Shown: positions 27,276-46,196 of the stretch, piece by piece
Layout: every line of letters starts with the position of its first letter
Position numbering within the stretch: the first letter of the stretch is position 1
Position numbers and translations under genes: made by a program
Notes under the pieces: generated by a model
Databases searched by the model: none
What the model was told of the DNA's origin: nothing
Seen by the model: only the letters and a program-made list of their open reading frames with translations
From: Chitinophaga sp. 180180018-3
GTDB lineage: Bacteria; Bacteroidota; Bacteroidia; Chitinophagales; Chitinophagaceae
Length of the DNA: 64,000 bases
Direction: 5' to 3'
Assembly: GCF_037893185.1 (NCBI RefSeq)
Contig: NZ_CP140772.1
Span: forward strand, 3,534,001 to 3,598,000

Positions 27276-28307
27276 ATGAAGCTACATCCGATATTTAAGT
27301 ACCTTTTCATCGATGATTTCTCTGCCACGCCTAAGTATTACCAGCTGGCCAATTCCATTATCAAAGCCATTGTTGACAAGAAAGTACAGCAAGACGATAT
27401 TCTGCCTTCTATCAACGAAGTAAGCTATGCGTTTGAAATATCGCGCGATACCGCAGAAAAAGCCTATAAATACCTGAAAAGCCTGGGCATACTGGGCTCT
27501 GTACCGGGTAAAGGTTATTATGTACAGCAAGTGAACCTCGACCGTCAGTTTAAGATCCTGCTACTGTTCAACAAATTGAGCGAGCATAAAAAGATCATCT
27601 ATGATTCTTTTGCCGATACGCTGGGAGAACAGGCCAGCATCGATTTCTATATATACAACAGTGATTTCAGTTTGTTCAAAAAACTGTTGTCCCAGAATCT
27701 TAATGAATACACACATGTGGTGATCCTGCCGCATTTCAGGGAGCGCTGGGAACATGTGGATGAAGTCATTAATACCATTCCGAAAGAAAAACTGGTATTG
27801 CTGGATAAGAAGCTGAAAGGAGTTACGGGAGAATATGGCGCAGTGTATGAGAACTTCCAGGAGGATATTTACGGCGCACTCGAGCAGGCCAAAAACAAAC
27901 TGCAGCAATATCACACTCTGAAAATCATCTATCCCGAAAATACCTACTATCCTGAAGAAATCTATGAAGGCTTTGCCCAGTTCTGCCAGAACTATGCCTT
28001 CAACAGTAAAAAAGTGAATGAGATTACGGAAGAAGACATACGCCCCGGAGATGTATACATCAATCTGCGCGAAAACGACCTCGTGTCGCTGATAGAAAGG
28101 ATCATATCGCTGGATTTGAAGATAGGTAAAGATGTAGGGGTTATTTCGTACAATGAAACCCCGCTCAAGAAGTACATCCTGAACGGTATTACCACTATTT
28201 CTACCGACTTCCGGTCGATGGGAGAAATGGCGGCGCGCCTGATACTGGACCAGTCTACCGCACAGATCGAAGTCCCTTTTCATGTGACCATGCGGGCATC
28301 TTTGTAA
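27276..28307 (+). CDS. GntR-family regulator with periplasmic-binding-protein-like sensor domain, likely rhamnose regulator
   Basis: 343 residues. An N-terminal GntR winged helix (about 20-85: YQLANSIIKAIVDKKVQQDD, ILPSINEVSYAFEISRDTAEKAYKYLKSLG, GSVPGKGYYV) is joined to a LacI/sugar-binding-protein-like domain (about 95-343: FKILLLFNKLSEHKKIIYDSF, GDVYINLREND, GKDVGVISYNETPLKKYILNG, ISTDFRSMGEMAARLIL). It should bind a rhamnose-pathway sugar and control the divergent operon through the repeat at 27169. Bacteroides uses an AraC-type protein for this, so the regulator has been replaced in this lineage. Rhamnose as ligand is inferred from position. Confidence 0.85.
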   Translation: MKLHPIFKYLFIDDFSATPKYYQLANSIIKAIVDKKVQQDDILPSINEVSYAFEISRDTAEKAYKYLKSLGILGSVPGKGYYVQQVNLDRQFKILLLFNKLSEHKKIIYDSFADTLGEQASIDFYIYNSDFSLFKKLLSQNLNEYTHVVILPHFRERWEHVDEVINTIPKEKLVLLDKKLKGVTGEYGAVYENFQEDIYGALEQAKNKLQQYHTLKIIYPENTYYPEEIYEGFAQFCQNYAFNSKKVNEITEEDIRPGDVYINLRENDLVSLIERIISLDLKIGKDVGVISYNETPLKKYILNGITTISTDFRSMGEMAARLILDQSTAQIEVPFHVTMRASL

Positions 28308-28381: not shown

Positions 28382-28445
28382 AATCATATATTTAGTTTAT
28401 GGTCTCTCGTTAGTGGTAGCAGGCTGCACTTGTAATTGCTCATTC

Positions 28446-30803
28446 ATGATCAGTAGCTATATCAAAACCGCCTCCAGAAACCTTTTACGGAACATTGGTT
28501 ATTCTATCCTCAATATATCCGGCCTGACTATCAGCATTGCCGCCTGCCTGCTGATATTCCTCATTGTGAAAAATGAACTGAACTACGATAGCTGGCATAA
28601 AAAAGCCGACCGTATTTACCGGGTTACTATGAACGGGCTGGATTTTAATCCCAGTGTTTCGATGGCGGTAACGGAAGCGTTGAAGAATGATTTTCCTGAG
28701 CTGGAAAACGTATCACAGTACTGGTACCAGACCAACGGGCTGATAACTATCGGCGATACCAGGTACAATGAAGGGGGATATGCTTATGCAGATGAATACT
28801 TTCCCCGGGTCTTTGATCACCGGTGGCTGGCCGGGGATCCCCGTACGGCGCTGAGTGAGCCAGACGAAGTGGTACTCACGGAAAGTATTGCCAGAAAGTA
28901 CTTCGGCTCTAAAGACCCACTCGGGGAAATGATCAACCTCAACAATCAGTTGAACCTGAAAGTAACCGGCGTGGTGGCCGATCCGCCACAGAACAGCAGC
29001 CAGCCTTTTATCTTCCTGGTTTCCTTTGCTACTGTAAAGAAAGATATACTGGCACATGTACAGTTCTTTAGCATCAATGGGGGTCATACCTATATTGTGC
29101 TTCCGGAACATTACAATCCGGCGCGACTGACAGCCCGCCTGCCTGATTTCATTTCCCGTAACTGGGGGGCCGATGTGGCCAAAGAAACCAAACTGCTGCT
29201 ACAGCCTTTAAAAGAGATACACTTTGATCAGCGCTATCTCGGTAATCCTGTTCATACTACTACCAGTCGTGAAACATACTGGGGGCTTTCTGCGATTGCG
29301 CTCCTGATCATCATCACTGCCAGTATCAATTTCATCAATATGGCCACGGCGCAGGCTATACGCCGGGCCAAAGAAGTGGGCGTACGCAAGGTACTGGGTG
29401 CTTACAAAGGGCAGCTGATCGGGCAGTTTCTCATCGAAACCACGGTATTGGTAGTAATAGCAGTAATGCTGGGTACATTGCTGGCCGCCACTACCCTGCC
29501 GCTGATCAACACCTGGATGGGTATGAAGATCAGCGCTGCGCAATTCTGGCAACCGGCTATAATGGGCTTACTGGGAGGCATTACCGTTGTTGTTATATTG
29601 CTGGCGGGGTTGTATCCTGCTTTTGTTCAATCTGCTTTCCAGCCCGCCCTTTCTTTAAAAGCCAATACAGGAATAAAGATCAAAGGACTGGGTATCCGCA
29701 AGATACTGGTATCATCGCAGTTTGGTATTTCGCAGGTGCTGATCGCCTGTACCCTGATTGTTGGCTACCAGATGGATTTCCTGCAGAACAAAGACCTGGG
29801 CTTTGATAAAAATGCCGTGCTTTCCTTCAACATACCCAATGATAATAAAAGAGAGCTGCTGCGGGAGCAGTTATCGTTACTCCCGGGCGTACGCCAGGTG
29901 AGCATCGCTAATGGCGCTCCTGTAGGCCCAAGTGGCTTTGCAGCATTCAATTGCCCGGAGGCAGGTCTTGTAAAAAATGATGTAACAGAAATAAAAGCAG
30001 TAGATGAGCATTATATGGACATGTTCTCACTCAGGTTGCTGGCCGGAGAGCCTATCCGGAAACGTGGTGCCAACGACACATTACGGCGTGTAGTCGTGAA
30101 CGAAATTATGCTGCACAAGCTGGGTATCCGGGATCCTGACCAGGCGCCGGGAAAGCGTTTCTACATCAACAATGCCCCGGTAACCATTATGGGCGTGGTA
30201 AAAGATTATCAGAGTGAATCCAGGCATAAGAAAAGAAGACCCTGTGTATTGGAATATGACCCGAATCACTTTGGCATGGCGGCGGTGAGGCTGGCTGCCA
30301 CCGATATGCCTAACACCATTGCCCGTATAGATAAGCTGTGGTCTGGTATGTTCCCGGATTACCGGTTTGAGTATGAATTCCTGGACGATCGCATCGCCGG
30401 CATGTATAAGCAGGAGCAGAAAGTATATACGGCGTTTAAATTGTTTTCTTCGCTCGCCATCCTGATTGGTTGTCTGGGACTATATGGCCTTGTTGCATTT
30501 GCTGCTGCACAGCGAACCCGGGAAATTGGTATCCGCAAGATACTTGGTGCAGGACTTCCCCAGATTGTAAGTTTGTTCGCCCGGGAATTCATCCTGTTGA
30601 TCTTTATTGCTTTTTGCATAGCGGGCCCGCTGGCCTGGTATACCATGCATCGATGGCTCGGTCATTTTGCTTATCAAACCAGCATTGGTGGTGGTACTTT
30701 CCTGATTGCCATCGGCATATCACTGCTGATAGCAGGGATTACTATCAGCTATCAGGCGGTTAAAGCTGGTCTTGCCGATCCGGTGAGGAGCTTGAGGAAT
30801 TAG
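28446..30803 (+). CDS. orphan FtsX/MacB-type ABC permease, duplicated-domain form
   Basis: 785 residues from MISSYIKTASRNLLRNIGYS; an upstream TTG would put 23 extra residues in front, and these look like leader sequence. It has two MacB-like periplasmic domains, each followed by FtsX membrane helices: a first helix near 20-40, three helices about 280-420, a further helix near 430-450, then three at the C-terminus (about 670-780). The motifs RRAKEVGVRKVLGAYKGQL and QRTREIGIRKILGAGLPQI are the paired coupling segments. No ATPase is encoded nearby. Such orphan permeases are abundant in Bacteroidota and may export peptides or act in envelope stress. It shares about the whole architecture and the upstream module with 57208-59610. 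Confidence 0.85.
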   Translation: MISSYIKTASRNLLRNIGYSILNISGLTISIAACLLIFLIVKNELNYDSWHKKADRIYRVTMNGLDFNPSVSMAVTEALKNDFPELENVSQYWYQTNGLITIGDTRYNEGGYAYADEYFPRVFDHRWLAGDPRTALSEPDEVVLTESIARKYFGSKDPLGEMINLNNQLNLKVTGVVADPPQNSSQPFIFLVSFATVKKDILAHVQFFSINGGHTYIVLPEHYNPARLTARLPDFISRNWGADVAKETKLLLQPLKEIHFDQRYLGNPVHTTTSRETYWGLSAIALLIIITASINFINMATAQAIRRAKEVGVRKVLGAYKGQLIGQFLIETTVLVVIAVMLGTLLAATTLPLINTWMGMKISAAQFWQPAIMGLLGGITVVVILLAGLYPAFVQSAFQPALSLKANTGIKIKGLGIRKILVSSQFGISQVLIACTLIVGYQMDFLQNKDLGFDKNAVLSFNIPNDNKRELLREQLSLLPGVRQVSIANGAPVGPSGFAAFNCPEAGLVKNDVTEIKAVDEHYMDMFSLRLLAGEPIRKRGANDTLRRVVVNEIMLHKLGIRDPDQAPGKRFYINNAPVTIMGVVKDYQSESRHKKRRPCVLEYDPNHFGMAAVRLAATDMPNTIARIDKLWSGMFPDYRFEYEFLDDRIAGMYKQEQKVYTAFKLFSSLAILIGCLGLYGLVAFAAAQRTREIGIRKILGAGLPQIVSLFAREFILLIFIAFCIAGPLAWYTMHRWLGHFAYQTSIGGGTFLIAIGISLLIAGITISYQAVKAGLADPVRSLRN

Positions 30804-31104: not shown

Positions 31105-31857
31105 TTACTTCTTCTTCAAAGCAGCTGCAATGGCTTTCTCCGCCAATGGCCCCATTACCAGGTAACCTGCCTTGTTAGGATGTACGCCATCGTAAGTAAA
31201 ATCAGCTTTAAGGCCTTTCCGTTCATCCACCATAGCGGTATAATAATCGAGATATACGCAACCGCTGGCAACAGCATATTTTTTGAGCCGCTGATTAAGG
31301 TCAGCTATTTTCTCTATCGGCTGCAGTCCTTTTCTCCAGGGGTAATCATATACCGGCAATACAGAGCTGATTACCACCCTGATACCGTTGGCTTTAGCCA
31401 GTTCCGCCATGGAAACCAGATTGCCGAAAATAGTTTCCACTGATGTATATCCGGTGTTACCGGCAATATCATTAGTACCTGCCAGCATCACTACTACCTT
31501 AGGTTTGAGATTGATTACATCCGGGCGGAAACGGATCAGCATCTGCGGTGTAGTTTGCCCGCTGATACCACGATTAATATAAGGCTTACCTTCAAAAAAT
31601 TCCGGATTAAGATTCCCCCATCCTATCGTAATCGAATTACCCATGAACACAACGCGCTGTTCACCAGCCTTGGGAGGTGCCACCTGTGTATTTGCCTCCT
31701 GGAAACATTTCAAACAGGCCCAGTCCTGTTTCATCAGTTCTTCCTGTTGCTTCTTTTGCTTAGCTGCTTCATCGGTATCATTCGTTTGCGCGAAGGTTGT
31801 TGTTCCTGCGAGGGAAAGCATCACCAGTAATGTAAATCGGAGCATTGAGTAGTTCAT
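31105..31857 (-). CDS. secreted SGNH/GDSL hydrolase
   Basis: 250 residues with signal peptide MNYSMLRFTLLVMLSLAGTTTFAQ. All SGNH blocks are present: catalytic Ser in VVFMGNSITIGWG, Gly in YINRGISGQTTPQ, Asn in MLAGTNDIAGNT and the Asp-His pair in YDGVHPNKAGY. Family members remove acetyl groups from plant polysaccharides or act on lipids. A short Cys-rich stretch (DWACLKCFQEA) before the domain is unusual and may form a disulfide. It is divergent from the SusC gene at 32072 and shares the 214-base control region, so a role in the same glycan pathway is likely. Confidence 0.87.
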   Translation of the reverse strand: MNYSMLRFTLLVMLSLAGTTTFAQTNDTDEAAKQKKQQEELMKQDWACLKCFQEANTQVAPPKAGEQRVVFMGNSITIGWGNLNPEFFEGKPYINRGISGQTTPQMLIRFRPDVINLKPKVVVMLAGTNDIAGNTGYTSVETIFGNLVSMAELAKANGIRVVISSVLPVYDYPWRKGLQPIEKIADLNQRLKKYAVASGCVYLDYYTAMVDERKGLKADFTYDGVHPNKAGYLVMGPLAEKAIAAALKKK

Positions 31858-31938
31858 TGGATTAATTATTAAAGATCAGAAAGTTAATATTTTTTTCTGC
31901 AGCGTTTTTAGAAAAATATATACAGGTTGTTTGCTGTA

Positions 31939-31994
31939 ACAGGAATTGATGTTCCGTAACAGGACAGTACAGGACAGTACAGGACGCAACAGGA
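31939..31994. promoter_or_regulatory. helically phased ACAGGA array before the SusC operon
   Basis: ACAGGA occurs at 31939, 31959, 31969, 31979 and 31989, that is on a strict 10-bp register with one position skipped. The last four form the run GTAACAGGACA, GTACAGGACA, GTACAGGAC, GCAACAGGATA. It lies between the divergent SGNH hydrolase and SusC genes. All copies face the same side of the helix, as expected for cooperative activator binding. No clear -33/-7 pair was found beside it. Confidence 0.55.
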
Positions 31995-32071
31995 TAGGAA
32001 TGTATGATTCTTCTATTAAATTTAAAACCACAAAGAATCGCCGTTTTATCACCTCTAAAATTCCACTTGTT

Positions 32072-35000
32072 ATGATTAAAGTTTTCCATCTTTATCATAA
32101 GGCACGTACCTGTATTGTAACGTACGGATTTACACTAGCACTTTTATTATTGTCGAAGAGTACTGTAGCACAAAAGGCCAACATTAGCGGACAGGTAACC
32201 GATGCCGCAACCGGCGGTGGACTTCTCAGTGTAACCGTTGGCGTTAAAGGGAGCAGCACAGGTACATTTTCCGATGCCAATGGCCGCTACACTATTTCAG
32301 CAGCGCCATCCGATTCACTGGTATTCAGTATGATCGGCTATCTTACGCGCACTGTTCATGTAGGCAGCCGGAACAAAATCAGTATTACACTGGAATCCAG
32401 CAACAAACAGCTGAACCAGGTAGTAGTGGTGGGTTATGGTACCCAGCAAAAGAAAGATGTAACCGGTTCCGTAGGACTGGTTACGATGAAGAACATCAAG
32501 GATATGCCTATTGCAGGTCCGGACCAGGCCTTAGCCGGTCAGATTGCGGGTATACAGGTAAGCACTTCCAACGGTATCCCCGGTGGCGGACCACAGGTAC
32601 AGGTGCGCGGCATCGGTGCTGTGGGCGCCGGTAGTCAGCCATTATATGTGGTGGACGGGTTTCCGCTGGGTTCCACCTCCGACCAGGTGAACGACCCGAT
32701 GAACGCGATTAATCCGCAGGACATTGAATCAATGGCAGTACTGAAAGACGCGTCTGCAACTGCCATCTACGGTTCCAGAGGCGCTAATGGCGTAGTGTTG
32801 ATCACTACCAAAAGAGGTAGTTCCGGTATACCGAAAATACAATTGTCTGCCAACTACGGTATTCAGTCCATTCCACAGAAAGGCCGCCCGAACCTTATGA
32901 ACGGACAGGAGTTTGCTCAGTTCAGAAAAGAGGCCATAGAAGATAATATCCGCTTTACACAGCATCGCGAGCCAACACTCGATGATATTCCCGAGATATA
33001 CCGTTATCCTGAAAAAATAGGAAAAGGTACCAACTGGTTCGATGCCGTTACAAGAGTAGCACCCATGCAGGATATCAACCTTTCGCTGAGCGGAGGTACC
33101 GAAAAACTGCGCACTTATATTTCCGCAGGATATTTCAACCAGGACGGTGTAATGATCAACACCGGCTATCAGCGCTTCAGCGTTAGAGCCAATGTAGACG
33201 CTACCCTGACCGATCGCTTCAAGGTAGGTTTCAACATCGCTCCCTCCTACACCCTTCGTAAAGGTGGTTTTCTTGGAGAAGGAAGAGGGGAAAATTTTGG
33301 TATTGCCAGCCCTATAGAACCTATCTATAAGCCAGACGGTTCCTATAACGCTTACATACAAAGCCCTGGAACATTCGGTTTGCCTAACCCGGTGATGGTG
33401 ATGAAAGAAACCACCAACAAGAGCAAAAGCAGCCGTATCCTCTTCAATGTGTACGGTGAATGGGAAATTATCAAAAACCTGAAATTCAAGTCTACCTTTA
33501 ACGTAGATTATCAACAAGGCAGCAATGAGTATTTCCGGCCCTCTACGCTGGCTAACGTAAACGCTGCGCCACCAAGCATTCCGTCGGGCAGCTACAACTC
33601 AGGAGAGTACCTGAACTGGCTGAATGAAAATACTTTGACGTATCAGTACAACACCAGCAACGGACATTCCTTCACTGGTCTGCTCGGTTACACCGTGCAA
33701 TCACAACGCGAAAACTACGCTTCGTTCAATGGCGCGAACTACCCTGATGATGATATCAAAACACTCAATGCTGCTGCTACCATTACCGGTGGTACAGATA
33801 TTACCGACTGGGCGCTGTTGTCGTATCTGGCCAGGATCAACTATGGTTATAAAGACAAATACCTCGTTACCGCTACAGTGAGAAGTGATGGTTCATCCAG
33901 GTTTGGTCCCAAGAACCGGTGGGGAACCTTCCCTTCTGTTGCTTTGGGCTGGAGGATTTCACAGGAAGAATTCATGAAAAATTCTGCGCTGATAAGCGAT
34001 CTTAAACTGAGGGTATCTTATGGTTTCACCGGTAACTTCAACATTGGTAACTATTCGTATATGAGCAATATCGGAACCAGCAATTATGTGTTCAATGGAA
34101 GCCTTGTTGGAGGCCGTGTGATGAACACCCTCGGTAACCCGGTACTGGGATGGGAAAAAATGCGCGAGTTGAATATTGGTCTTGACCTGGGATTATGGAA
34201 AGACAGGGTTTACCTCACTGCCGATCTCTATAAACGTAATACGCAGGATTTGTTGCTGAATGTAGAGATCCCGCAGTCCAGCGGCTTCGGCAACGTTACT
34301 GAAAACCGCGGTGATATGGAAAACAGGGGACTTGAAATCGGTATATCCTCCCGTAACATAGAAACTAAACAGTTTAGCTGGACCACCAGTTTCAACATCG
34401 CCTTCAACCGCAATAAAGTGTTGAAACTGGGTACTGACAATGCACCTATCTACTCCGGTAACAGTAGCGAGGGTAACCCCACCAATATCACTATGGTAGG
34501 CAAGCCGCTGGCCATGCTGTTCGGGTATGTATTCGACGGGATCTATCAGAACCAGGCAGAAGTGGATAAGGGCCCTGCATTCCCCGGTGCTATCCCCGGT
34601 AATATCCGCTACAAGGATATCAACGGAAATGGTGTAATCAACCCGGTGGAAGACTTTGCCATCATCGGCAATCCTTATCCGAAATTCAACTGGGGCATGA
34701 CCAACACCCTCACTTATAAGAACCTGGATCTGCGCGTGCTGGTAGTGGGTTCTATGGGAGCCGACAGGATACATGCTACCAACGACTATAACGGAAATAT
34801 AGATGGTGTATTCAACGTACGTAAAGATGTAGCCTACAGGTGGAGGTCTGAATCTAATCCGGGTAACGGAAAGGTGCCTACCACTAATGGTTCCGGACGA
34901 GGTAGAGTAATGTACAGAGATGTAAGCTCACTGACTGTTCAGAAAAACGATTACGCCTGGGTAAAGAATATCACATTGGGTTATACTTTCCCAAGCAAGA

Positions 35001-35194
35001 GTAAAGGATTCCTGCAAAGCGCCAGGGTATACGCCAGCATTCAGAACGCTATCCTGTTCACTAAATATGATGGCAACCCTGAAGTGACTAACTACATTGG
35101 CAAAGGCGGTAGTGGCGCACTGGTTCCGGGAGTTGATTATTCTAACTACCCTGTACCGAGAATCTTCTCACTGGGCACCAATCTTACATTTTAA
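32072..35194 (+). CDS. SusC/RagA-type TonB-dependent outer-membrane transporter
   Basis: 1040 residues from MIKVFHLYHKARTCIVTYGF, chosen because it gives a standard signal peptide ending STVAQ; the frame stays open 42 codons upstream across part of the repeat array. A CarboxypepD_reg-like domain (ISGQVTDAATGGGLLSVTV, about 36-110) is followed by the SusC signature LNQVVVVGYGTQQKKDVTGSV, the plug (GPDQALAGQIAGIQVS, LYVVDGFPL, AVLKDASATAIYGSRGANGVV) and a 22-strand barrel ending in the aromatic IFSLGTNLTF. It imports an oligosaccharide or glycoside with the SusD lipoprotein that follows after 23 bases. Confidence 0.95.
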   Translation: MIKVFHLYHKARTCIVTYGFTLALLLLSKSTVAQKANISGQVTDAATGGGLLSVTVGVKGSSTGTFSDANGRYTISAAPSDSLVFSMIGYLTRTVHVGSRNKISITLESSNKQLNQVVVVGYGTQQKKDVTGSVGLVTMKNIKDMPIAGPDQALAGQIAGIQVSTSNGIPGGGPQVQVRGIGAVGAGSQPLYVVDGFPLGSTSDQVNDPMNAINPQDIESMAVLKDASATAIYGSRGANGVVLITTKRGSSGIPKIQLSANYGIQSIPQKGRPNLMNGQEFAQFRKEAIEDNIRFTQHREPTLDDIPEIYRYPEKIGKGTNWFDAVTRVAPMQDINLSLSGGTEKLRTYISAGYFNQDGVMINTGYQRFSVRANVDATLTDRFKVGFNIAPSYTLRKGGFLGEGRGENFGIASPIEPIYKPDGSYNAYIQSPGTFGLPNPVMVMKETTNKSKSSRILFNVYGEWEIIKNLKFKSTFNVDYQQGSNEYFRPSTLANVNAAPPSIPSGSYNSGEYLNWLNENTLTYQYNTSNGHSFTGLLGYTVQSQRENYASFNGANYPDDDIKTLNAAATITGGTDITDWALLSYLARINYGYKDKYLVTATVRSDGSSRFGPKNRWGTFPSVALGWRISQEEFMKNSALISDLKLRVSYGFTGNFNIGNYSYMSNIGTSNYVFNGSLVGGRVMNTLGNPVLGWEKMRELNIGLDLGLWKDRVYLTADLYKRNTQDLLLNVEIPQSSGFGNVTENRGDMENRGLEIGISSRNIETKQFSWTTSFNIAFNRNKVLKLGTDNAPIYSGNSSEGNPTNITMVGKPLAMLFGYVFDGIYQNQAEVDKGPAFPGAIPGNIRYKDINGNGVINPVEDFAIIGNPYPKFNWGMTNTLTYKNLDLRVLVVGSMGADRIHATNDYNGNIDGVFNVRKDVAYRWRSESNPGNGKVPTTNGSGRGRVMYRDVSSLTVQKNDYAWVKNITLGYTFPSKSKGFLQSARVYASIQNAILFTKYDGNPEVTNYIGKGGSGALVPGVDYSNYPVPRIFSLGTNLTF

Positions 35195-35217
35195 TTCAGC
35201 ACCAAAAAAACTGAGAC

Positions 35218-36699
35218 ATGAAAAAAATCTTTTCTTCTATCATATTCGCGGGATTGACACTGAGCAGCTGCAACCATATGCTTGATGTAAAACCCAATTC
35301 GTTCTCCAGCGGTAACAACTATTATAACACGGAAGCTCAGATACTGCGGGCGGTAAATGGCTGCTATGGCGTGTTAAAGAATCTTTATACAAGCGACTAC
35401 TGGGCCATGTCCGAAATGCGGGCAGACAACACCAATTACCAGTACGATGAAAGTGACCGTGGTGCACAGCAACGCGAAGAAATCGATGAATTCCTGATCA
35501 CTACTACCAACAACTACGTTAATGCTGTATGGAGTCAGCTGTACAGAAACATACAGCAGTCGAATGTAATTGTAAGTCGTATTGACGGTGTAAAATTCTC
35601 CAATGACGCAACTAAAAAACAATACCTCGGTGAAGCCAAATTCCTCCGTGCGCTCTATTATTTTCATCTCGTTCGCCTTTTCGGTGGTGTGCCACTGATC
35701 GTGAAAGAAGTGACAGGCCCGGAGGAGGCTATCACCCCCAAGAAAGCTACTCCGGAAGAAGTATATGCGCAGATCATTGCAGATGCTTCTGAAGCGGCAG
35801 CTAATCTGCCGGCCACCTACGCTGCATCGGAAACAGGCAGGGCTACCAAAGGCGCCGCCCTCACGCTGCTCGGTGATGTATACATGACTATGAAAGATTT
35901 CCCGAAAGCAGTCAGCACATTGCAACAGGTTGTCGGGCTTAACTATGCCCTGGTAGGGAACTATGCCGATAACTTCGATCCGGCAAAGAAAAATAATTCA
36001 GAATCTGTTTTCGCTGTACAATTCGACGCCGGGCTGGAAGGACAATTCAGCAATTATATTTTCGTATTCGGACCAAGAAACGGGAAGAAAGATCTGACAG
36101 GTTTCAATGGCAACCTCGGTGGATGTAATATTCCTACACCCAGCATTGTAAATGCCTACGAAGCAAACGACAAAAGAAAAGATGCATCCATCGCTATGTA
36201 CGACAGCCCCACCAATGCAGCTTTCCAGGAATCAGTAGCATTCGGTGGCAAGATGCCATTCATCAGGAAATTTTATCACCCGCCATACGCGCTGGACGGA
36301 CGCGCCAACGAAAACTGGCCGGTGTACCGCTATTCACAGGTACTATTAATGCTAGCTGAAGCGATCAATGAAACCGGCAATGGAGACCCGCTGCAGTATA
36401 TCAATCCTGTGCGCCAACGTGCCGGTCTTTCTCCACTGGGCGCCTTAAGCCAGGCAGCATTCAGAGATACAGTTTTTCATGAACAACGGGTAGAACTGGC
36501 CTTCGAAGATCAACGCTGGTATCAGCTGTTGCGTACCGGAAAAGCCGTATCCGTAATGACAGCACATGGCATTGAAGAAAAGAAAAGGCTATCAAGACTA
36601 AGTGCTGCGTCTTATAACATACAACCATATATGCTGCTGTATCCTATTCCTGAAAGGGAAGTACGGTTGAATAAATTTGGTCAGAATCCCGGTTGGTAA
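35218..36699 (+). CDS. SusD/RagB-type glycan-binding lipoprotein
   Basis: 493 residues; lipobox LTLSSC with Cys18. N-terminal DVKPNSFSSGNNYYNTEAQILRAVNGCY and the helical TPR-like part (KKQYLGEAKFLRALYYFHLVRLFGGVPLI, then TPEEVYAQIIADASEAAANLPA) are typical of SusD_3 and SusD_RagB. The C-terminus has VYRYSQVLLMLAEAINE, NPVRQRAGL and FHEQRVELAFEDQRWYQLLRTGKA. It closes over the SusC barrel and holds the ligand. It is the second gene of the operon; a 103-base gap follows before the oxidoreductase gene. Confidence 0.95.
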   Translation: MKKIFSSIIFAGLTLSSCNHMLDVKPNSFSSGNNYYNTEAQILRAVNGCYGVLKNLYTSDYWAMSEMRADNTNYQYDESDRGAQQREEIDEFLITTTNNYVNAVWSQLYRNIQQSNVIVSRIDGVKFSNDATKKQYLGEAKFLRALYYFHLVRLFGGVPLIVKEVTGPEEAITPKKATPEEVYAQIIADASEAAANLPATYAASETGRATKGAALTLLGDVYMTMKDFPKAVSTLQQVVGLNYALVGNYADNFDPAKKNNSESVFAVQFDAGLEGQFSNYIFVFGPRNGKKDLTGFNGNLGGCNIPTPSIVNAYEANDKRKDASIAMYDSPTNAAFQESVAFGGKMPFIRKFYHPPYALDGRANENWPVYRYSQVLLMLAEAINETGNGDPLQYINPVRQRAGLSPLGALSQAAFRDTVFHEQRVELAFEDQRWYQLLRTGKAVSVMTAHGIEEKKRLSRLSAASYNIQPYMLLYPIPEREVRLNKFGQNPGW

Positions 36700-36802
36700 A
36701 AAAAATGCAGAAAACGGGAAAACGTTTGCTATATTACTACTGCTATAGTGACCGCGACCCTTACCAACTGTATCATCCAGCAAATATTCAAGTATATATA
36801 TT

Positions 36803-39493
36803 ATGACCACGTTAAAAAAGAAACCATTCAGGCTACTATTGCTCTTTTCCGCTGTTATCGCTGCGGGAGTTGCATGCAATAACGGAAACGAATCAACGTC
36901 GAAGAAAACGACCGGAAACCCGAAAATAGATGCCCTCAAACTGCCGGAAGGTTTCCATGCTGAACGGCTGTATAGTCCGGGCGACAATAAACAGGGCTCC
37001 TGGGTATCCATGACCTTCGATGATAAAGGCCGGATGATCGTATCCGATCAGTACGGATACCTTTACCGCTTAACGCTGCCCGCTGTCGGAGAAGACTCTG
37101 CCAAACTTAAAATCGAGCAGCTGATTATTGGCAGGGATACTTCCACCCAGCATGTATCGATGGGATATGCGCAAGGCCTGCTGTATGCCTTCAACAGCCT
37201 GTATGTGATGGTGAATCACAACAGCGATGACCGCTTTAACAAAGGCAGCGGCCTGTATCGCCTGCAGGACACAGATGGCGATGATCAATTCGATAAGATC
37301 ACGCTGATCAAGGCGCTGGAAGGTGAAGGCGAGCATGGCCCCCACAGTATCGTACTGGCGCCGGATAAGAAATCCATCTATGTGATCGCGGGAAACTTTA
37401 CCAAAATCCCGGAGATGAACAGTTATCGCGTACCTCCATCCTGGAACAACGACAACGTTTTTCCATTTATCAAGGATCCTAACGGTCACGATAATACGGT
37501 GAATACACATGGCGGCTGGATTGCGCACCTGGACTCTCTGGGCACCAACTGGGAGCTGATCAGCTCCGGTTATCGCAATCCTTTCGATATGGCGTTCAAT
37601 GATGAGGGTGATCTCTTCACGTACGATTCAGACATGGAATGGGACATAGGCACGCCCTGGTATCGTCCGACCCGCATTTGTCAGGTAACAAGCGGCAGCG
37701 AATATGGCTGGCGCCCCGGAACAGAGAAATGGTCGCCCGCATATCCGGATAACCTCCCTCCGTTGCTGAATATCGGACAAGGCTCTCCTACCAACGTGAT
37801 CTATGGCGGCAAAGCACGCTTCCCCGAAAAATACCGCAAAGCACTGTTTGCATTCGACTGGAGCTTCGGTATTATTTATGCGGTATCGTTGCAACCAGAA
37901 GGTGCTTCGTATAAAGCCTCCGCAGAGGAATTCCTTTCCGGCTCTCCCCTGCCGCTCACCGATGGCGCCATTGGTCCGGATGGTGCGCTGTACTTCCTTA
38001 CAGGCGGACGCAGGCTGGAATCAGATCTTTACCGTGTGTACTATAAAGACAACAACGAAAGCAACGAACCACTGGCTGTTGCTGCGCCAACTGAAGAAGC
38101 AAAGCTGCGGAAACAACTGGAAGAATATCATGGTGGTGCCAAAGCGGGTGCAGTGGATTTTGCATGGCCTAAGCTGAATCACGCCGATCGCTTCATTCGT
38201 TTCGCTGCCAGGGTGGCGATAGAAAATCAACCCGTAAATCAGTGGCAGAGCAAAGTGCTACAGGAGAAAGATCCGGTAACACTGATTCAGGGCGCTATTG
38301 CGCTGGCGCGTCAGGGTAAGGAAGATGTAAAGAAACAACTGCTGCCGCAGCTCATGACGATCGACTATACGAAGTTATCTGCTGATCAGCAGATCGATCT
38401 GTTGCGCGCCATTGAACTGGTGCTGGTACGCATGGGTAAACCCGACGCTGCACTCAATGCACAACTGGCGGCTTACCTCGATGCACATTACCCGGCGCCT
38501 ACCAATGATCTCAACCGCTCCCTGAGCAAACTGCTGGTATACCTCGACGCACCTAAGTCAGTGGAAAAAACCATGGCATTGCTCGCCAGCGCAAAAGACG
38601 ACACTGCCGCCAACAAAACGGCCATGCAATCGGCCGACCTGATACTCCGCAATCCTCAATACGGGCTGGATATCGCCGGCATGCTGGCTAAGATGCCTCC
38701 GCTGCAGCAAACCTGGTACGCCACCGTGTTAAGCCAGGCAAAGAATGGCTGGACCCCGGCATTGCAGGATGAGTACTTCAAATGGTTCTATCATGCATTC
38801 ACTTTCAAAGGCGGACATAGTTTCATAGGTTTCATCAACAGTGCGAGAAAGAATGCATTGGCCAATGTACCTAAAAATGAATTCGCTCACTTTAACCAGA
38901 TCTCCGGTGACTCACTTGCCAACAACGGCGGTAACCTTGCCCAGGGCTTCGCTCAGCCTAAAGGCCCGGGACGCAACTGGAAAGTGGAGGAAGCGCTGAA
39001 AGTGGTAGACAGCGGGTTAACCAACCGCAACTTCGAACAGGGCCGCGCGATGTTTGCTACTTCGCTGTGCAGCTCCTGCCATGGTATGCGTGGGGAAGGC
39101 GGCGTAGCCGGACCAGATCTAACGCAGCTGGGTACACGTTTTTCCAACAAAGACATCCTGGAATCTATTATAGATCCGAGCAAAACCATCTCCGACCAAT
39201 ATGCTGCTACCGTTTTCACATTGAAGAATGGCAGCTCCGTACTGGGCCGGCTGGTAAGCCAGGATAAAGACAAGTATGTCATCTCCCAGAATCCTTTTGC
39301 ACCGCAGGAACACCGTGAACTGCCCAAGAAAGACGTTGCGGCTACAAAAGTATCTACTGTGTCCGTAATGTTGCCCGGGCTCATTAACCGGTTAAATCCT
39401 GAAGAGTTGAAAGACCTGATGGCTTACCTGAAATCCGGTGGTAACAAACAGGATTCCATGTTTATCGCATCCAAACAACTTAGCGCTAAATAA
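36803..39493 (+). CDS. beta-propeller dehydrogenase-like lipoprotein with C-terminal cytochrome c domain
   Basis: 896 residues. Lipoprotein signal ending GVAC (Cys25). Residues about 45-425 form a glucose/sorbosone-dehydrogenase-like propeller (LPEGFHAERLY, YAFNSLYVMVNHNSDDRFN, GEHGPHSIVLAPDKKSIYVI, SSGYRNPFDMAFNDEGDLFTYDSDMEW, LPLTDGAIGPDGALYFLTGG). A helical HEAT-like middle (about 435-720) follows, then a heme c domain with CSSCHG at about residue 756 and a candidate Met ligand further on. Such propeller-heme proteins (common in Planctomycetes and Bacteroidota) pass electrons from sugar oxidation to the respiratory chain. Here it would oxidise sugars in the periplasm. Whether the propeller binds PQQ is unknown. 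Confidence 0.85.
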   Translation: MTTLKKKPFRLLLLFSAVIAAGVACNNGNESTSKKTTGNPKIDALKLPEGFHAERLYSPGDNKQGSWVSMTFDDKGRMIVSDQYGYLYRLTLPAVGEDSAKLKIEQLIIGRDTSTQHVSMGYAQGLLYAFNSLYVMVNHNSDDRFNKGSGLYRLQDTDGDDQFDKITLIKALEGEGEHGPHSIVLAPDKKSIYVIAGNFTKIPEMNSYRVPPSWNNDNVFPFIKDPNGHDNTVNTHGGWIAHLDSLGTNWELISSGYRNPFDMAFNDEGDLFTYDSDMEWDIGTPWYRPTRICQVTSGSEYGWRPGTEKWSPAYPDNLPPLLNIGQGSPTNVIYGGKARFPEKYRKALFAFDWSFGIIYAVSLQPEGASYKASAEEFLSGSPLPLTDGAIGPDGALYFLTGGRRLESDLYRVYYKDNNESNEPLAVAAPTEEAKLRKQLEEYHGGAKAGAVDFAWPKLNHADRFIRFAARVAIENQPVNQWQSKVLQEKDPVTLIQGAIALARQGKEDVKKQLLPQLMTIDYTKLSADQQIDLLRAIELVLVRMGKPDAALNAQLAAYLDAHYPAPTNDLNRSLSKLLVYLDAPKSVEKTMALLASAKDDTAANKTAMQSADLILRNPQYGLDIAGMLAKMPPLQQTWYATVLSQAKNGWTPALQDEYFKWFYHAFTFKGGHSFIGFINSARKNALANVPKNEFAHFNQISGDSLANNGGNLAQGFAQPKGPGRNWKVEEALKVVDSGLTNRNFEQGRAMFATSLCSSCHGMRGEGGVAGPDLTQLGTRFSNKDILESIIDPSKTISDQYAATVFTLKNGSSVLGRLVSQDKDKYVISQNPFAPQEHRELPKKDVAATKVSTVSVMLPGLINRLNPEELKDLMAYLKSGGNKQDSMFIASKQLSAK

Positions 39494-39519
39494 TTTTCCG
39501 GTACAACAAACGAACAGGG

Positions 39520-40569
39520 ATGACTTGGGAAAATAAAATAGGCACGCATACACAACTAGGCGGTATTGAAACGGCTATACTGGATAATGGTCCCGGCAGG
39601 GGCACCCGTATAGCCTGGATCAATACCGGTACTGGTCTGAGATATAAAGTGGTCATCGACCGGGCTATGGACATCGTGGATGCTTTTTATCAGCAGCATA
39701 GTCTGGCCTGGCTGAGTCACACCGGGATTACGTTCCCCAATCACCACGCTGATAGAGGTCTGGAGTGGCTCCGGACCTTTGGCGGTGGTTTGATGACCAC
39801 CTGTGGTCTGATGCATGTGGGCGGCCCGGAAACAGATGAATTCGGAGAGCGCGGCCTGCATGGACCCATCAGTAACACATCTGCCGAAATAATATCCATT
39901 ATTCAGCCAGATCCGCTGGCAGGCAGCATGGAAATGAGTATTACCGGCATCATGCAGCAGGTAAGTGTACTGGGGCCAAAACTCGTGCTTAAACGTACGA
40001 TATCCGGCCGCCTCGGTGAAGCGGTCATAAAGGTGCACGACGAAGTGATCAACCGCGGCAACACCACTGCACCGCACATGTTGTTGTATCATTTCAACTT
40101 TGGCTGGCCGCTGGTGGATGAAGGAGCAGACATCTGCTGGAAAGGCAGCTGGGTTTCCCGCGAAGGCAATCCGGATCACCTTTTCAGAGAAGGACATCCT
40201 TACAAAAAATGCATGGCGCCGATGGACAGCCACGCCGGCGGCGGAGAAGAAGCGGCCATCATTGATCCGGTAGCAGATACCGATGGATGGTGTGCCTGCG
40301 GCGTACACAATGCAGCATTGTCAATTGCTGTGTCGCTCCGCTTCCGTAAAGACCAGCTGCCGGTATTAACCAACTGGCAACACTGGGGCAAACAGGAATA
40401 CGTGATGGGCCTGGAACCGGGCACCCATCCGCCTACCGGGCAGGCCAAAGCCCGCCGGGAAGGCACGCTGCTTTTCCTGCAACCAGGCGAAAGCAGGCAG
40501 TATGAGCTGGAAATAGCCGTGCTGCACACGAGTGAAAAAATCAAACAATTTATTACTGATCTTTTATAA
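39520..40569 (+). CDS. DUF4432 family, aldose-1-epimerase-like protein
   Basis: 349 residues without a signal peptide, so cytosolic. Galactose-mutarotase-like fold: VVIDRAMDIVDAFYQQHSLAWLSHTGI, TFGGGLMTTCGLMHVGGP, ERGLHGPISNTSAEI and a central HMLLYHFNFGWPLVDEG, the His residues being candidates for the mutarotase acid/base pair. DUF4432 proteins usually accompany sugar catabolic genes and are thought to interconvert anomers or epimers of unusual sugars. It starts 26 bases after the heme lipoprotein and is followed after 18 bases by the cupin-like gene. Exact reaction unknown. Confidence 0.82.
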   Translation: MTWENKIGTHTQLGGIETAILDNGPGRGTRIAWINTGTGLRYKVVIDRAMDIVDAFYQQHSLAWLSHTGITFPNHHADRGLEWLRTFGGGLMTTCGLMHVGGPETDEFGERGLHGPISNTSAEIISIIQPDPLAGSMEMSITGIMQQVSVLGPKLVLKRTISGRLGEAVIKVHDEVINRGNTTAPHMLLYHFNFGWPLVDEGADICWKGSWVSREGNPDHLFREGHPYKKCMAPMDSHAGGGEEAAIIDPVADTDGWCACGVHNAALSIAVSLRFRKDQLPVLTNWQHWGKQEYVMGLEPGTHPPTGQAKARREGTLLFLQPGESRQYELEIAVLHTSEKIKQFITDLL

Positions 40570-40587
40570 CCCACATTATTCAAGCCC

Positions 40588-41787
40588 ATGGAAAAACAAA
40601 GTTTAGCAGCAAAAGCATTTGAGCAGGGACAAGGGATACTCCGACTGGCGCCTAACTGGGTGCCCAGATCTTTCTGCGTGCCGGGAAGACGGATCAAACT
40701 GCATCCTGATGATTATTATGTCCTGGGAGGTGAACGTGGCGGCATCGATGAACGTTGGCTGTCGTCGACCACACCTGCAAAGAATGGTCCGCTGACCGGC
40801 GAAAATGAAGGGATGAGCATGGTAGTAGCAGACGACAATGGCCAAACCCGGCAGCTACTGCTGAAAGACGCCATCAGCGAATTAAAAGATAAACTAATCG
40901 GGAAACGGCTGTGGGACGCTTACGGCGCATGGCCCATGTATTCCAAATTCTTTGATAACATGGGGCCACTCCCCCATCATATTCATCATAACGATGAAAA
41001 GGCAGCACTGATCGGGCAGGCCGGCAAACCGGAAGCCTATTACTTTCCGCCACAGCTGAATAACCATGGCGGCGATTTCCCGTATACTTTTATGGGCATC
41101 GCACCTGGCACTACCCGTGAGCAGATCAAAGAATGTCTGATGAATTTTACCAAAGGTGATAACAAGATCACCAACTATTCACAGGCCTTCCGCCTGGAAC
41201 CCGGCACAGGATGGGATGTTCCGCCGGGCTTACTCCACGCGCCCGGAAGTATGTGCACTTATGAACCTCAGAAAGCCTCTGATGTGTTTGCAATGTATCA
41301 GTCGCTCGTAAACGAGGCCATCATACCTGAAGAACTGCTCTGGAAAGGCACTCCGCAGGAAAGCATTGGCGACTATGATGCCCTGATGGATGTGATCGAC
41401 TGGGACCTGAATGTAGATCCGCTTTTATTTCAGCACCGGTACATGCCTCCTATACCGGCAGCTAACGGAGAAGGATATACGGAAACATGGGTATGTTATA
41501 AATCTGATGCCTTCAGTGCAAAAGAGCTTACGATAGCACCCGGAGCTACTGTAATTATCAAAGATGCCGCTGCTTACGGAATGATTATGATGCAGGGCCA
41601 TGGCAAGATGGGAGTATGGGATGTGGAAACTCCGGCGCTCATCCGTTACGGGCAGCTGACTCATGACGAATATTTCGTCAGCGAACAGGCTGCAGTAGCC
41701 GGCGTGAAGATAGTAAACACTTCAGCAACAGATCCTATTGTGATGCTGAAACATTTTGGTCCGGGTAACCCCGACCTCGTGCTCTAA
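40588..41787 (+). CDS. cupin/phosphomannose-isomerase-like protein, function unknown
   Basis: 399 residues, cytosolic. A metal-site-like motif LPHHIHHNDEKAAL (about 128-142), a later Glu-rich strand, and DVPPGLLHAPGSMCTYEPQ (third His) resemble the H-x-H, E and H ligands of type I mannose-6-phosphate isomerase, with two barrels (the second about 300-395, including GATVIIKDAAAYGMIMMQGHGKM). The match to true ManA is weak, so it is probably an isomerase for a keto or uronic sugar rather than mannose-6-phosphate. Tight spacing with its neighbours places it in the same pathway. Confidence 0.65.
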   Translation: MEKQSLAAKAFEQGQGILRLAPNWVPRSFCVPGRRIKLHPDDYYVLGGERGGIDERWLSSTTPAKNGPLTGENEGMSMVVADDNGQTRQLLLKDAISELKDKLIGKRLWDAYGAWPMYSKFFDNMGPLPHHIHHNDEKAALIGQAGKPEAYYFPPQLNNHGGDFPYTFMGIAPGTTREQIKECLMNFTKGDNKITNYSQAFRLEPGTGWDVPPGLLHAPGSMCTYEPQKASDVFAMYQSLVNEAIIPEELLWKGTPQESIGDYDALMDVIDWDLNVDPLLFQHRYMPPIPAANGEGYTETWVCYKSDAFSAKELTIAPGATVIIKDAAAYGMIMMQGHGKMGVWDVETPALIRYGQLTHDEYFVSEQAAVAGVKIVNTSATDPIVMLKHFGPGNPDLVL

Positions 41788-41813
41788 TCCATTTCTGACC
41801 TAAAACCCGCGTT

Positions 41814-42854
41814 ATGACAGAAAATAATTATCCAAAGCTACACAATGCCACCTGGCCGGGAATCGTAGGCAAGGGCGGCGATGCAGAGCCAATCATTTCT
41901 TTCGATACGCTGTTGCAGATGACTGCAGCAGCAGAAGTTGATGGCATGAAGTTCGACGGCATTGATATCGGACTATTCGATCCGCATGTACCGGTAGGCA
42001 GCAGTGATGACGACCTGAAAGAGCTGGCGGATAAAGTAGCGGCTCATCAGCTGGAAATTGGCAGCCTGGTTGCGCCTATCTGGCCTCCGGAAGGCGGCTC
42101 AGCGATGGGCAGCAAAGAAGAGCGCGCCCGTTTTGTAGAGCAGGTACGCAAGGCCTGCCATGTAGGTAAGCGGCTGCGTGAAATAGGCATACGGCCCAAT
42201 GGGGTGATCCGCATCGACTCAGCCACTAATCCCGAAAGCTGGGCGAAAGATCCGGCGGGCAATACTAAACTCATTGCACAAACCTTCCGTGAAGCCTGCG
42301 ACGTAGCAGCAGACTACGGCGAGAAACTGGCGGCCGAAGGGGAAATCTGCTGGGGAGGCATGCACAGCTGGAAAACCATGCTGGATACATTAGAAGCAGT
42401 AGACCGTTCCAATATCGGGTTCCAGGCCGATATGTCGCATACTTTCCTTTATCTGCTGGGATACAATCGTCCGGAAGACCGGATACTGCCGGCCAACTTC
42501 GAATGGAGCGACCGCGAAGCACTGGTGAATGGCCTGAAGCAACTCACCCATGCACTCCGTCCATGGACGATGGATTTCCATGTGGCGCAGAACGATGGCA
42601 CCGTGCATGGCAGTGGGTCTCACGATAAAACCGGACGTCACTGCCTGGCTACCGATCCCAATGGCAAGCTGAACATCGCTACCGATGCGGGATTCTGGCT
42701 GCGCGACGATAAAGGAGCGTTGACGAAAGCATTCCGCCATATCTGTTGGGATGGATGTATGTTTCCCAACGAAGTGATGACCAAAGCACAAACCTGGAAT
42801 GATATACTGGCGGCCATGATAGCAGTAAGAAGGCAACATGGATGGCGGGAATAG
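41814..42854 (+). CDS. xylose-isomerase-like TIM-barrel sugar isomerase/epimerase
   Basis: 346 residues. AP-endonuclease-2/xylose-isomerase-like barrel: [30 protein letters not shown] (strand 1), [42 protein letters not shown] (metal Glu), [14 protein letters not shown] (metal Asp and His), [27 protein letters not shown] and a final WDGCMFPNE. Relatives isomerise or epimerise unmodified or 3-keto sugars with Mn2+ or Co2+. It sits 26 bases after the cupin-like gene and 27 bases before the Gfo/Idh gene. Substrate unknown. Confidence 0.85.
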
Positions 42855-42881
42855 TATACTCATCCACAAATACCAAGAACT

Positions 42882-44033
42882 ATGACTAATAAGAAAGCTT
42901 TAAGAATAGGATTGATAGGATGTGGCTTTATGGGCAGAACACATTCCAACGGCTACCTGCGGGTTAAGAATTTTTTTCCTGAACTGGCTTACCAGCCTGT
43001 ATTGAAAGCAGTTTGTTCCCGCACAGAAAGCAAGGCCAGGGCCTTTGCAGAACAATGGGGCTATGAATCCGTTGAAACCGACTGGAAAGCGCTGATCGCC
43101 AGAGAGGATATAGATGCTGTTGACATTTGTACACCCAATGATAAGCATGCAGAGATTGCCATTGCAGCAGCAGCTGCCGGTAAAATGATCCTTTGTGAGA
43201 AACCGCTGGCACGCACACTGGCAGAGTCGGAAGGAATGGTAACCGCCATTGAAAAAGCGGGCGTGCCGAATACCGTCTGGTATAACTACCGGCGCTTGCC
43301 GGCAGTGACCCTTGCGAAACAAATTATCGACTCGGGGAAACTGGGCCGGATATTTCACTACCGTGCTAACTTCCTGCAAGACTGGACCATCAACGCCAAC
43401 CTTCCGCAGGGTGGCGAAGGCCTGTGGCGGATGGATGCAGATGTGGCTGGTTCCGGCGTACTGGGCGACCTGCTCTCCCATTGCATTGATACCGCTTTAT
43501 GGCTGAATGGCAGCATCGCCACCGTATCGGCGATGACAGAAACGTTTGTAAAAGAACGTATGCATCAGCTTACCGGTAAAGTCGAGAAGGTAAATATCGA
43601 CGATGCCTGTTCCTTTATGTGCCGCTTCAGCAATGGGTCATTGGGGCTTTTTGAATCAACACGTTATGCCCGTGGACATAAAGCATTATATACATTTGAA
43701 ATCAACGGTGAAAATGCCTCCATACGCTGGGATCTGCACGATCTGAACCGCCTGGAATACTTTGATAACGCCGACGCCTCTACGGTAAAAGGATGGCGCT
43801 CCATACATGTTACAGACGGTGATCAGCCATATATGAATAAATGGTGGGTACCGGGCCTGGGCATCGGCTACGAGCATTCATTTGTGCACCAGGTAGCGGA
43901 TTTCCTGAAAAGCCTGGAAACCGGCGGTGTCTGCTCTCCTTCGTTCAGAGAAGCGCTGGAAACACAGAAAGTGTGTCAGGCTGTACAGGACTCCGCCAAT
44001 ACGGGTACCTGGAAGGAAACACATGCATCCTAA
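42882..44033 (+). CDS. cytosolic Gfo/Idh/MocA-family dehydrogenase
   Basis: 383 residues, no export signal, unlike the homologue at 14633. Rossmann motif [36 protein letters not shown], catalytic lysine in LCEKPLART, and the C-terminal substrate motif [18 protein letters not shown] with the His-Asp pair. Members oxidise a hydroxyl of a sugar, inositol or glycoside with NAD(P). Beside DUF1080 and TIM-barrel proteins, C3 oxidation of a glycoside is the most attractive reaction. The DUF1080 gene starts 80 bases downstream. Confidence 0.9.
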
Positions 44034-44113
44034 CGGTGAAGGTCACACGAAGATTGTTTACCAGCACAGGTAAAACGGTGACGTCTAAACGAAAAAACAA
44101 CAAAACATTATTT

Positions 44114-44875
44114 ATGCTGAAAAGATCCGGCGCTCTTTCTTTATCTCTTGTAGCGGCTTCGCTGCTGTTTACAGGAACCAGTTGCCAGACAGGTAACGGA
44201 ATGAGTAACAACAATGGCTTCATTAAAATCTTTGATGGCAAAACCCTCCAGGGCTGGGAAGGCGACTCCGTTCACTGGCGGGCAGAAAATGGTATACTGA
44301 TCGGAGAAGTAACACCTTCTACCCTGCTGAAAACCAATAATTTTCTGATCTGGAAAGGCGGTCAGCCTGCCAACTTTGAGCTGACCTGCGAATTCAGGAT
44401 CACTGAAGGAGGTAATAGCGGCATCAACTACCGCAGCGTGCGGGTAGAAAACGTACCTCATGCACTCAAGGGTTACCAGGCAGATATCGATGGCGCGAAT
44501 CACTACACCGGTCAGAACTACGAAGAACGCGGCCGTACCACTCTTGCTTACCGTGGTCAGAAAACCACCATCCCTCCTACTAAATTAAGTTTGCAGGAAG
44601 GCGTGAAAAATAATGCATGGAGCGCGGCAGTTGTTACGGGTTCTCTCGGAAGTTCCGACTCGTTGCAAACGCTTATCAAAAAAGAAGACTGGAACAAATG
44701 CCGCCTCGTTATCCGTGGCAATCGTCTTCAACACTACATCAACGGTATTCTGATGAGCGACGTAACCGACAACGACAAAGTAAACGGCAAAGCCCTGGGC
44801 CTGCTCGGATTGCAGTGCCATGTAGGCCCGCCGATGAAGGTCGAATACCGGAATATGCTGCTGAGGAAATTATAA
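44114..44875 (+). CDS. DUF1080 (3-keto-disaccharide hydrolase family) lipoprotein
   Basis: 253 residues from MLKRSGALSLSLVAAS; the longer open frame upstream overlaps the Gfo/Idh gene and is not real. Lipobox FTGTSC (Cys24). A concanavalin-like jelly roll follows: FIKIFDGKTLQGWEGDSVHWRAENGILIGE, FELTCEFRITEGGNSGINYRS, RLVIRGNRLQHYINGILMSDVTD, and LGLLGLQCHVGPPMKVEYRNMLLR. This family cleaves the bond of 3-keto-glycosides and keto-disaccharides. It is the last gene of the operon and would act in the periplasm on material oxidised at C3. A hairpin element follows its stop at once. Confidence 0.9.
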   Translation: MLKRSGALSLSLVAASLLFTGTSCQTGNGMSNNNGFIKIFDGKTLQGWEGDSVHWRAENGILIGEVTPSTLLKTNNFLIWKGGQPANFELTCEFRITEGGNSGINYRSVRVENVPHALKGYQADIDGANHYTGQNYEERGRTTLAYRGQKTTIPPTKLSLQEGVKNNAWSAAVVTGSLGSSDSLQTLIKKEDWNKCRLVIRGNRLQHYINGILMSDVTDNDKVNGKALGLLGLQCHVGPPMKVEYRNMLLRKL

Positions 44876-46195: not shown

Positions 46196-46196
46196 A

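Follow-up and report, generated by a model that had tools for sequence, protein, structure and literature searches.

A conserved Bacteroidota gene cassette with a predicted two-compartment keto-sugar route and its association with the Ebo system

Background

The 3-keto-glycoside pathway of Bacteroides is reportedly encoded by BT2156-BT2160 and is said to combine DUF1080, Gfo/Idh and TIM barrel proteins. In the lactose route of Caulobacter and Pedobacter, which joins LacABC with DUF1080, oxidation is periplasmic, the DUF1080 protein bears a signal, and epimerases and a reductase are encoded nearby, according to the accessible part of an account that also mentions BT2157 (PMC9007349). The levoglucosan pathway (LgdA-LgdB1-LgdB2-LgdC) proceeds by oxidation, elimination, hydration and reduction, as outlined in the accessible sections of its description (PMC7676230). 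Here we analyse a 64,000-nucleotide stretch (the window; positions 3,534,001-3,598,000) of the single-contig, 8.13 Mb genome of Chitinophaga sp. 180180018-3. At ~3.57 Mb it holds a cassette of eight colinear genes, which encode SusC, SusD, a propeller-cytochrome lipoprotein (PropCyt), a DUF4432 protein, a phosphomannose isomerase-like protein (CupL), a TIM barrel (TIM), a Gfo/Idh oxidoreductase and a DUF1080 protein.

The cassette resembles each of these systems in part. It shares with the Bacteroides pathway DUF1080, Gfo/Idh, a PF01261 barrel and the keto-sugar logic, but its Gfo/Idh is signal-less and misses the BT_2158 and BT_2159 cut-offs, and PropCyt, DUF4432 and CupL are added. It is like the LacABC route in its periplasmic oxidation (predicted here), signal-bearing DUF1080 and nearby epimerases and reductase; it differs in that no GMC family was found in the ten window proteins scanned, the candidate oxidant being a quinoprotein-type propeller with heme, and in that the accessible text on LacABC (PMC9007349) mentions neither CupL nor DUF4432. 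Related Gfo/Idh and PF01261 enzymes connect it to the levoglucosan pathway, from which it is set apart by the exported DUF1080 and PropCyt that stand alongside them and by a dehydrogenase cut-off that is missed.

Tentatively, and with somewhat less than even confidence, we propose that the cassette encodes a two-compartment use of glycosides via keto-sugars that is linked to the Ebo system. As their families suggest, SusC and SusD would import a small glycoside into the periplasm. PropCyt, judged by its predicted fold and candidate residues, would oxidise one of the ring hydroxyls, the likeliest being that at C3, and pass the electrons to the respiratory chain; DUF1080, in the same compartment, would split the resulting keto-glycoside either hydrolytically or by elimination, in keeping with what is known of its family. 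The freed keto-sugar or 3-keto-glycal would then cross the inner membrane; some relatives encode a ribose-type ABC importer, and the cassette of the window showed no importer gene. Inside the cell, the mutarotase-like DUF4432 could act on the keto-sugar, TIM could perform an epimerase- or hydratase-type step, CupL an aldose-ketose isomerase-type step and Gfo/Idh an NAD(P)-linked reduction, the four core enzymes together restoring a normal hexose. The Ebo system of the host may be needed by, or may serve, this route, as the co-occurrence of the two suggests. The idea of a 3-keto-glycoside route finds partial support, its substrate, C3 position, cofactor and activities all being predictions.

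Results and discussion

Conservation of the cassette

A scan of GTDB species genomes for CupL gave at least 595 candidate stretches, of which 590 are relatives, and the best 80 were kept; 57 of these 80 loci extend ~10 kb on each side and are referred to as full-flank loci. All 80 appear to come from Bacteroidota, save two 'uncultured bacterium' records (L030 and L058). CupL, TIM and Gfo/Idh are each present in 57/57 full-flank loci and DUF4432 in 56, L063 being without it, and the order DUF4432-CupL-TIM-Gfo/Idh is kept on one strand in all 56 that hold the four genes. This refutes the possibility, raised in the initial annotation of the locus, that the gene order is specific to one strain; the observation is far more general than that. 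The layout given there for the window itself, eight colinear genes in the above order and on one strand with mostly short gaps, is borne out by open reading frames and family matches, and the gaps measure 18-103 bases.

Across relatives, the core four genes are constant and the periphery is variable. Within 10 kb, DUF1080 occurs in 55 of the 57 full-flank loci, PropCyt in 41 and the two together in 40; of the 57, 27 carry SusC with SusD, 19 ThuA and 16 an ABC permease of the monosaccharide type. Of the initial interpretation, the grouping of DUF1080 with the conserved Gfo/Idh and PF01261 barrel and with a SusC/D pair is supported, as is conservation well past a single strain. A second, larger DUF7133/cytochrome c protein (for example L102:12946-16056) is commonly accompanied by ThuA and by one more TIM barrel, and a cluster with this larger protein lies near the cassette in 15 of the 57. 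In one genome, two frames lie among the cassette genes (L098:4978-8070): a RhaD aldolase/dehydrogenase and a short frame of 260 residues that appears by eye to be part of a sugar kinase.

The transporter pair is of the kind present in polysaccharide utilisation loci, as family profile matches show. SusC (32072..35194, plus strand; TIGR04056, 868 bits) lies in a frame that opens at 31946, its probable start being the ATG at 32072, and the SusD lipoprotein follows at 35218..36699 (plus strand; PF07980, PF14322). Glycoside hydrolase and polysaccharide lyase families gave no match in the ten window proteins scanned, in agreement with the earlier observation that no classical glycoside hydrolase is present.

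Compartments and the candidate oxidant

Export signals were called over family members by a hydropathy heuristic at a looser and a stricter threshold. PropCyt (36803..39493, plus strand) and DUF1080 (44114..44875, plus strand) both have lipoprotein-like starts; a signal is called in 59/63 and 57/63 PropCyt proteins at the two thresholds, respectively, and in 66/66 and 57/66 DUF1080 proteins. The corresponding counts are 5/79 and 0/79 for Gfo/Idh and 1/83 and 0/83 for DUF4432, and at both thresholds 0/84 for CupL and 0/74 for TIM; the five Gfo/Idh calls could be due to the first strand of the nucleotide-binding fold, which is hydrophobic. By this heuristic, PropCyt and DUF1080 are exported, and DUF4432, CupL, TIM and Gfo/Idh are not. 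If it is right, Gfo/Idh could not feed DUF1080, since the two would lie in different compartments, and the oxidant of DUF1080 would be an exported enzyme. The oxidation had been assigned beforehand to either Gfo/Idh or the heme protein. The second option gains, PropCyt being the better candidate because it shares the predicted compartment of DUF1080 and has a propeller of the PQQ (pyrroloquinoline quinone) sugar dehydrogenase type, and the first loses, with no signal in Gfo/Idh at the stricter threshold.

PropCyt combines a propeller (residues ~43-417), HEAT-like helices and a C-terminal c-type heme domain with a CxxCH motif (TIGR02603, 97 bits), the heme motif being CSSCH at 756-760, with Met856. 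The predicted propeller fold matches solved PQQ sugar dehydrogenases and is like those of soluble glucose dehydrogenase (sGDH), Asd and AA12 pyranose dehydrogenase, from which PropCyt differs by its HEAT-like domain and the c-type heme at its C end. Residues H178, R258 and N259 are kept in 59/59 relatives, and we take them to be a candidate catalytic His and Arg-Asn pair, matched by motif, not by superposition, to the sGDH sequence; candidate Ca-ligand positions are presumably present as well. Among related enzymes, CcPDH also bears a heme domain, with heme b, in the accessible part of its description (PMC6881789). Oxidation by an exported quinoprotein-type heme protein, as modelled here, is the best-supported step of the proposed function, reasonable but unproven. 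The initial annotation had considered that a respiratory heme protein and a cupin-like isomerase in such an operon would be new, a claim that is narrowed by LacABC, for which the accessible text makes a respiratory oxidant beside DUF1080 known in principle (PMC9007349).

The four core enzymes

DUF4432 (39520..40569, plus strand; PF14486, 324 bits) is without signal peptide, as are the three proteins that follow, and is single-copy in the host genome. Its sole PDB sequence relative is 3ty1, a hypothetical aldose 1-epimerase (94.5 bits).

CupL (40588..41787, plus strand) resembles type I phosphomannose isomerase, and profile scans place it in no family of Pfam or NCBIfam. Its relatives are often annotated as class I mannose-6-phosphate isomerase, and its sole PDB match at E <= 1 is the phosphomannose isomerase-like 1zx5 (E 0.089). 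Residues H131, H133, E149 and H217 are invariant in 84/84 close and 9/9 more distant relatives; they are presumably metal ligands, the phosphomannose isomerase set being Gln/His, His, Glu and His. A second, distant CupL clade occurs in large, similarly composed gene runs (L091, L092, L093, L094, L096 and L097). A kinase over the XylB cut-off was found in the gene run of the distant CupL in both loci tested (L091 and L097), and an aldo-keto reductase was confirmed in L092. The occurrence of an XylB-type kinase in the same gene run as CupL is consistent with a role of CupL as an aldose-ketose isomerase. Eight CupL relatives at 35-39% identity, L091 and L097 among them, sit in other gene settings. 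Relatives near the type of genome G200 (P0123, P0136 and P0238) bear names from Ignavibacteriaceae, Candidatus Sulfotelmatobacter and Alistipes, and the family seems to reach past Bacteroidota.

TIM (41814..42854, plus strand; PF01261) is a xylose-isomerase-like barrel in which E175, E177, D206, H256 and D313 are invariant among relatives. Its structure model (pLDDT 81.8) has fold neighbours that include IolE, IolI, ketose 3-epimerases and AtHYD, with scores too close to choose among them.

The levoglucosan-dehydrogenase-like Gfo/Idh/MocA oxidoreductase (42882..44033, plus strand) conserves K107, D196 and H200 invariantly among relatives. Its best curated NCBIfam model is levoglucosan dehydrogenase NF052479 (336.9 bits, the cut-off of 650 not being reached), and its leading PDB matches are 4h3v (329 bits; uncharacterised by name) and then levoglucosan dehydrogenase 6a3f (274 bits). 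The Bacteroides glycoside and disaccharide 3-dehydrogenases, represented by the equivalog models BT_2158 (32.1 bits, cut-off 750) and BT_2159 (36.1 bits, cut-off 650), score far lower. The 3-keto-glycoside route suggested at the outset is partly supported, by the conserved set of DUF1080, Gfo/Idh and PF01261 barrel; the Gfo/Idh itself falls below the BT_2158, BT_2159 and levoglucosan cut-offs.

The NF052479 and 6a3f matches, together with the monosaccharide type of the ABC importer in some relatives, favour a levoglucosan-like route, in which the cytoplasmic Gfo/Idh would oxidise an imported anhydrosugar or cyclitol and TIM would then open it, DUF1080 and PropCyt being there for other substrates. 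We regard this route as very doubtful, because the NF052479 cut-off is missed and DUF1080 is kept in nearly all full-flank loci (55/57). Moreover, only one Gfo/Idh is found among the ten proteins scanned, whereas B. smithii has both lgdA and lgdC in the accessible part of PMC7676230, and TIM has 346 residues compared to ~275 for LgdB1 in the accessible part of PMC10066097.

DUF1080, which completes the cassette, matches PF06439, the 3-keto-disaccharide hydrolase domain, with 119.4 bits (cut-off 26.8); its start is most likely the ATG at 44114, downstream of the end of gfo.

Weighing the proposed function

A number of observations weigh against the glycoside route via keto-sugars that we propose. 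PropCyt scores 67.7 bits against TIGR02604, short of the cut-off of 122.2, and its 44 sequence matches in the PDB include no PQQ enzyme. The Z margin of its fold above unrelated propellers is small, and the AA12 entries (Z 17.8-18.4) rank amid these propellers. The PQQ contacts made by sGDH look lost in PropCyt, Lys377, Arg406 and Arg408 apparently being replaced by S354, P384 and T386 in a by-eye alignment. No PqqE over cut-off was found in the host genome, which could be explained by PQQ uptake, and 16 of the 57 full-flank loci have no PropCyt gene within 10 kb. For DUF1080, the match to PDB chains named 3-keto-disaccharide hydrolase domain reaches only 27.8 bits over residues 33-111, and the best PDB match is a putative glycosyl hydrolase. 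The link between CupL and phosphomannose isomerase draws on the motif and the match at E 0.089, and the modelled fold of TIM cannot separate epimerase, dehydratase and hydratase. In the literature, as far as the accessible texts go, the DUF1080 family includes an endo-xanthanase/lichenase (PMC9007349), and sGDH oxidises C1 of free sugars, not C3 of glycosides, docking suggesting C1 for TrAA12 as well (PMC6881810).

This C1 specificity is also what would be expected if a dehydrogenase of the GMC/LacABC type, encoded elsewhere, made the 3-keto-glycoside and PropCyt oxidised another carbon, for example C1 to the lactone. The host genome has six GMC C-domain matches, the combination of LacABC with DUF1080 is published (PMC9007349, accessible part), and DUF1080 is kept in 15 of the 16 full-flank loci that lack PropCyt. 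The GMC explanation is nevertheless unlikely in our judgement, given that no GMC family is found in the ten window proteins scanned and that PropCyt and DUF1080 both occur in 40 of the 57 full-flank loci.

Association with the Ebo system

Co-occurrence with Ebo was assessed by searching for EboE alone over 395 genomes of the phylum, a close CupL being one of at least 73% identity. EboE is present in all 10 genomes with a close CupL, the host genome included, compared to 31/395 overall (hypergeometric P 2e-12), and by genus in 9/9 compared to 19/171 (P 3e-10); both P values ignore the tree. A strong DUF4432 (E < 1e-80) marks the same 10 genomes plus G200. EboE is found in 0/9 genomes with a more distant CupL, namely G200 (51%) and eight still more distant, and in 1/10 genomes with a weak DUF4432 only. 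In a second, class-wide draw the numbers are 7/7 and 21/379, all seven being in the first draw as well. Among isolates, which account for 40 of the 80 loci as judged here, EboE is over cut-off in 39 of the 39 genomes searched; this set may overlap with the 395 genomes, and common descent means that the Ebo counts are not independent of one another.

In five loci the ebo operon (EboABCDEF) directly adjoins the cassette, and the two co-occur in the samples examined. In four Cyclobacterium loci (L038, L055, L056 and L057), ebo genes come directly after gfo. In L062, a contig of a metagenome-assembled genome of Candidatus Sphingobacterium, 12 genes form a one-strand run: PropCyt, which is truncated where the contig ends, then DUF4432, CupL, TIM, Gfo/Idh, DUF1080 and EboA-EboF. 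Family matches on the Cyclobacterium proteins confirm EboA, EboC, an EboD-like protein and EboE; EboB, whose frame in L055 was not picked by the open reading frame filter, and EboF are assigned by place and similarity only. The Ebo proteins of L062 are no closer to those of Cyclobacterium than are those of many unlinked genomes, which argues against a single recent joining event.

By contrast, ebo is a separate locus in 35 of the 39 isolates and in the host genome, where EboABCDEF lies at ~64.2-71.2 kb of contig C1 (L124:8242-15204), far from the cassette. A Gfo/Idh gene is found downstream of ebo in 8/8 Chitinophaga (the host and seven others); the host protein has a twin-arginine-like start by eye and scores 139 bits against BT_2158, below the cut-off of 750.

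This association opens the possibility that the cassette works with the Ebo product and not with an outside glycoside. A sugar or cyclitol, made or recycled by the cytoplasmic enzymes, would then be moved or lipid-linked by Ebo, and PropCyt and DUF1080 might act on that product in the periplasm, by analogy with ScyE and its presumed action on the scytonemin monomer. Such a role would fit the EboE counts with close CupL (10/10 genomes against 31/395, and 39/39 isolates), the near absence of EboE with distant CupL (0/9) or weak DUF4432 only (1/10), and the contiguity in L062 and the four Cyclobacterium loci. It would also fit Nostoc, where delivery of a cytoplasmic molecule to a periplasmic oxidase depends on Ebo genes, according to the accessible part of PMC6282210. 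We still consider it rather unlikely. A close CupL is missing from 21 of the 31 genomes with EboE, and SusC/D and the binding-protein ABC importers point to uptake. Linkage is seen in just 5 of the 80 loci, the flanks being limited; of the 39 isolates, only the four Cyclobacterium show the cassette in the stretch surrounding EboE. The association may also reflect shared ancestry or habitat.

For the keto-sugar route itself, a more specific and quite improbable suggestion is that Ebo supplies a molecule that its periplasmic part needs. This could be a carrier, in the form of a lipid-linked sugar or cyclitol, or else a redox cofactor of propeller dehydrogenases like PropCyt, as might apply to the host genome with its lack of a PqqE match over cut-off.

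Genes flanking the cassette

A GntR-type regulator with a periplasmic-binding-like sensor domain (27276..28307, plus strand; PF00392 and PF13377), which the initial annotation of the locus does not list, is a possible regulator of the cassette. Its orthologues adjoin SusC in L002 (C. vietnamensis, 683 bits) and L007 (C. chungangae, 611 bits), and weaker ones occur in L063, L050 and L009. Because the orthologues in L002 and L007 lie directly before SusC, the gene is probably part of the cassette, with a MacB-type permease gene (28377-30803) intervening here. The divergent SGNH/GDSL esterase noted earlier is recovered at 31105..31857 on the minus strand (PF13472, 100 bits) and has a signal-like N-terminus; of the 80 loci only five have it, all among the seven from Chitinophaga isolates (L001-L007), its position often being beyond the fetched flank. 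An ABC/MacB/HlyD set lies downstream at 45515-48535.

Conclusion

With the cassette, the keto-sugar routes recognised in recent years gain a probable variant that is split over two compartments, widespread and strongly conserved, and that includes a candidate for a new respiratory oxidant and an isomerase-like family without a name. In the open-licence literature, which leaves out most subscription papers, we found no description of the cassette or of its link to Ebo. The co-occurrence with Ebo is the surprising and more important part. If Ebo does supply a molecule to the periplasmic route, close cassettes would be confined to genomes with Ebo, as they are in those examined here, and the general role of Ebo would be to serve periplasmic oxidation reactions. 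Since the tie between cassette and Ebo occurs in culturable heterotrophic bacteria, a growth phenotype could reveal what that role is.

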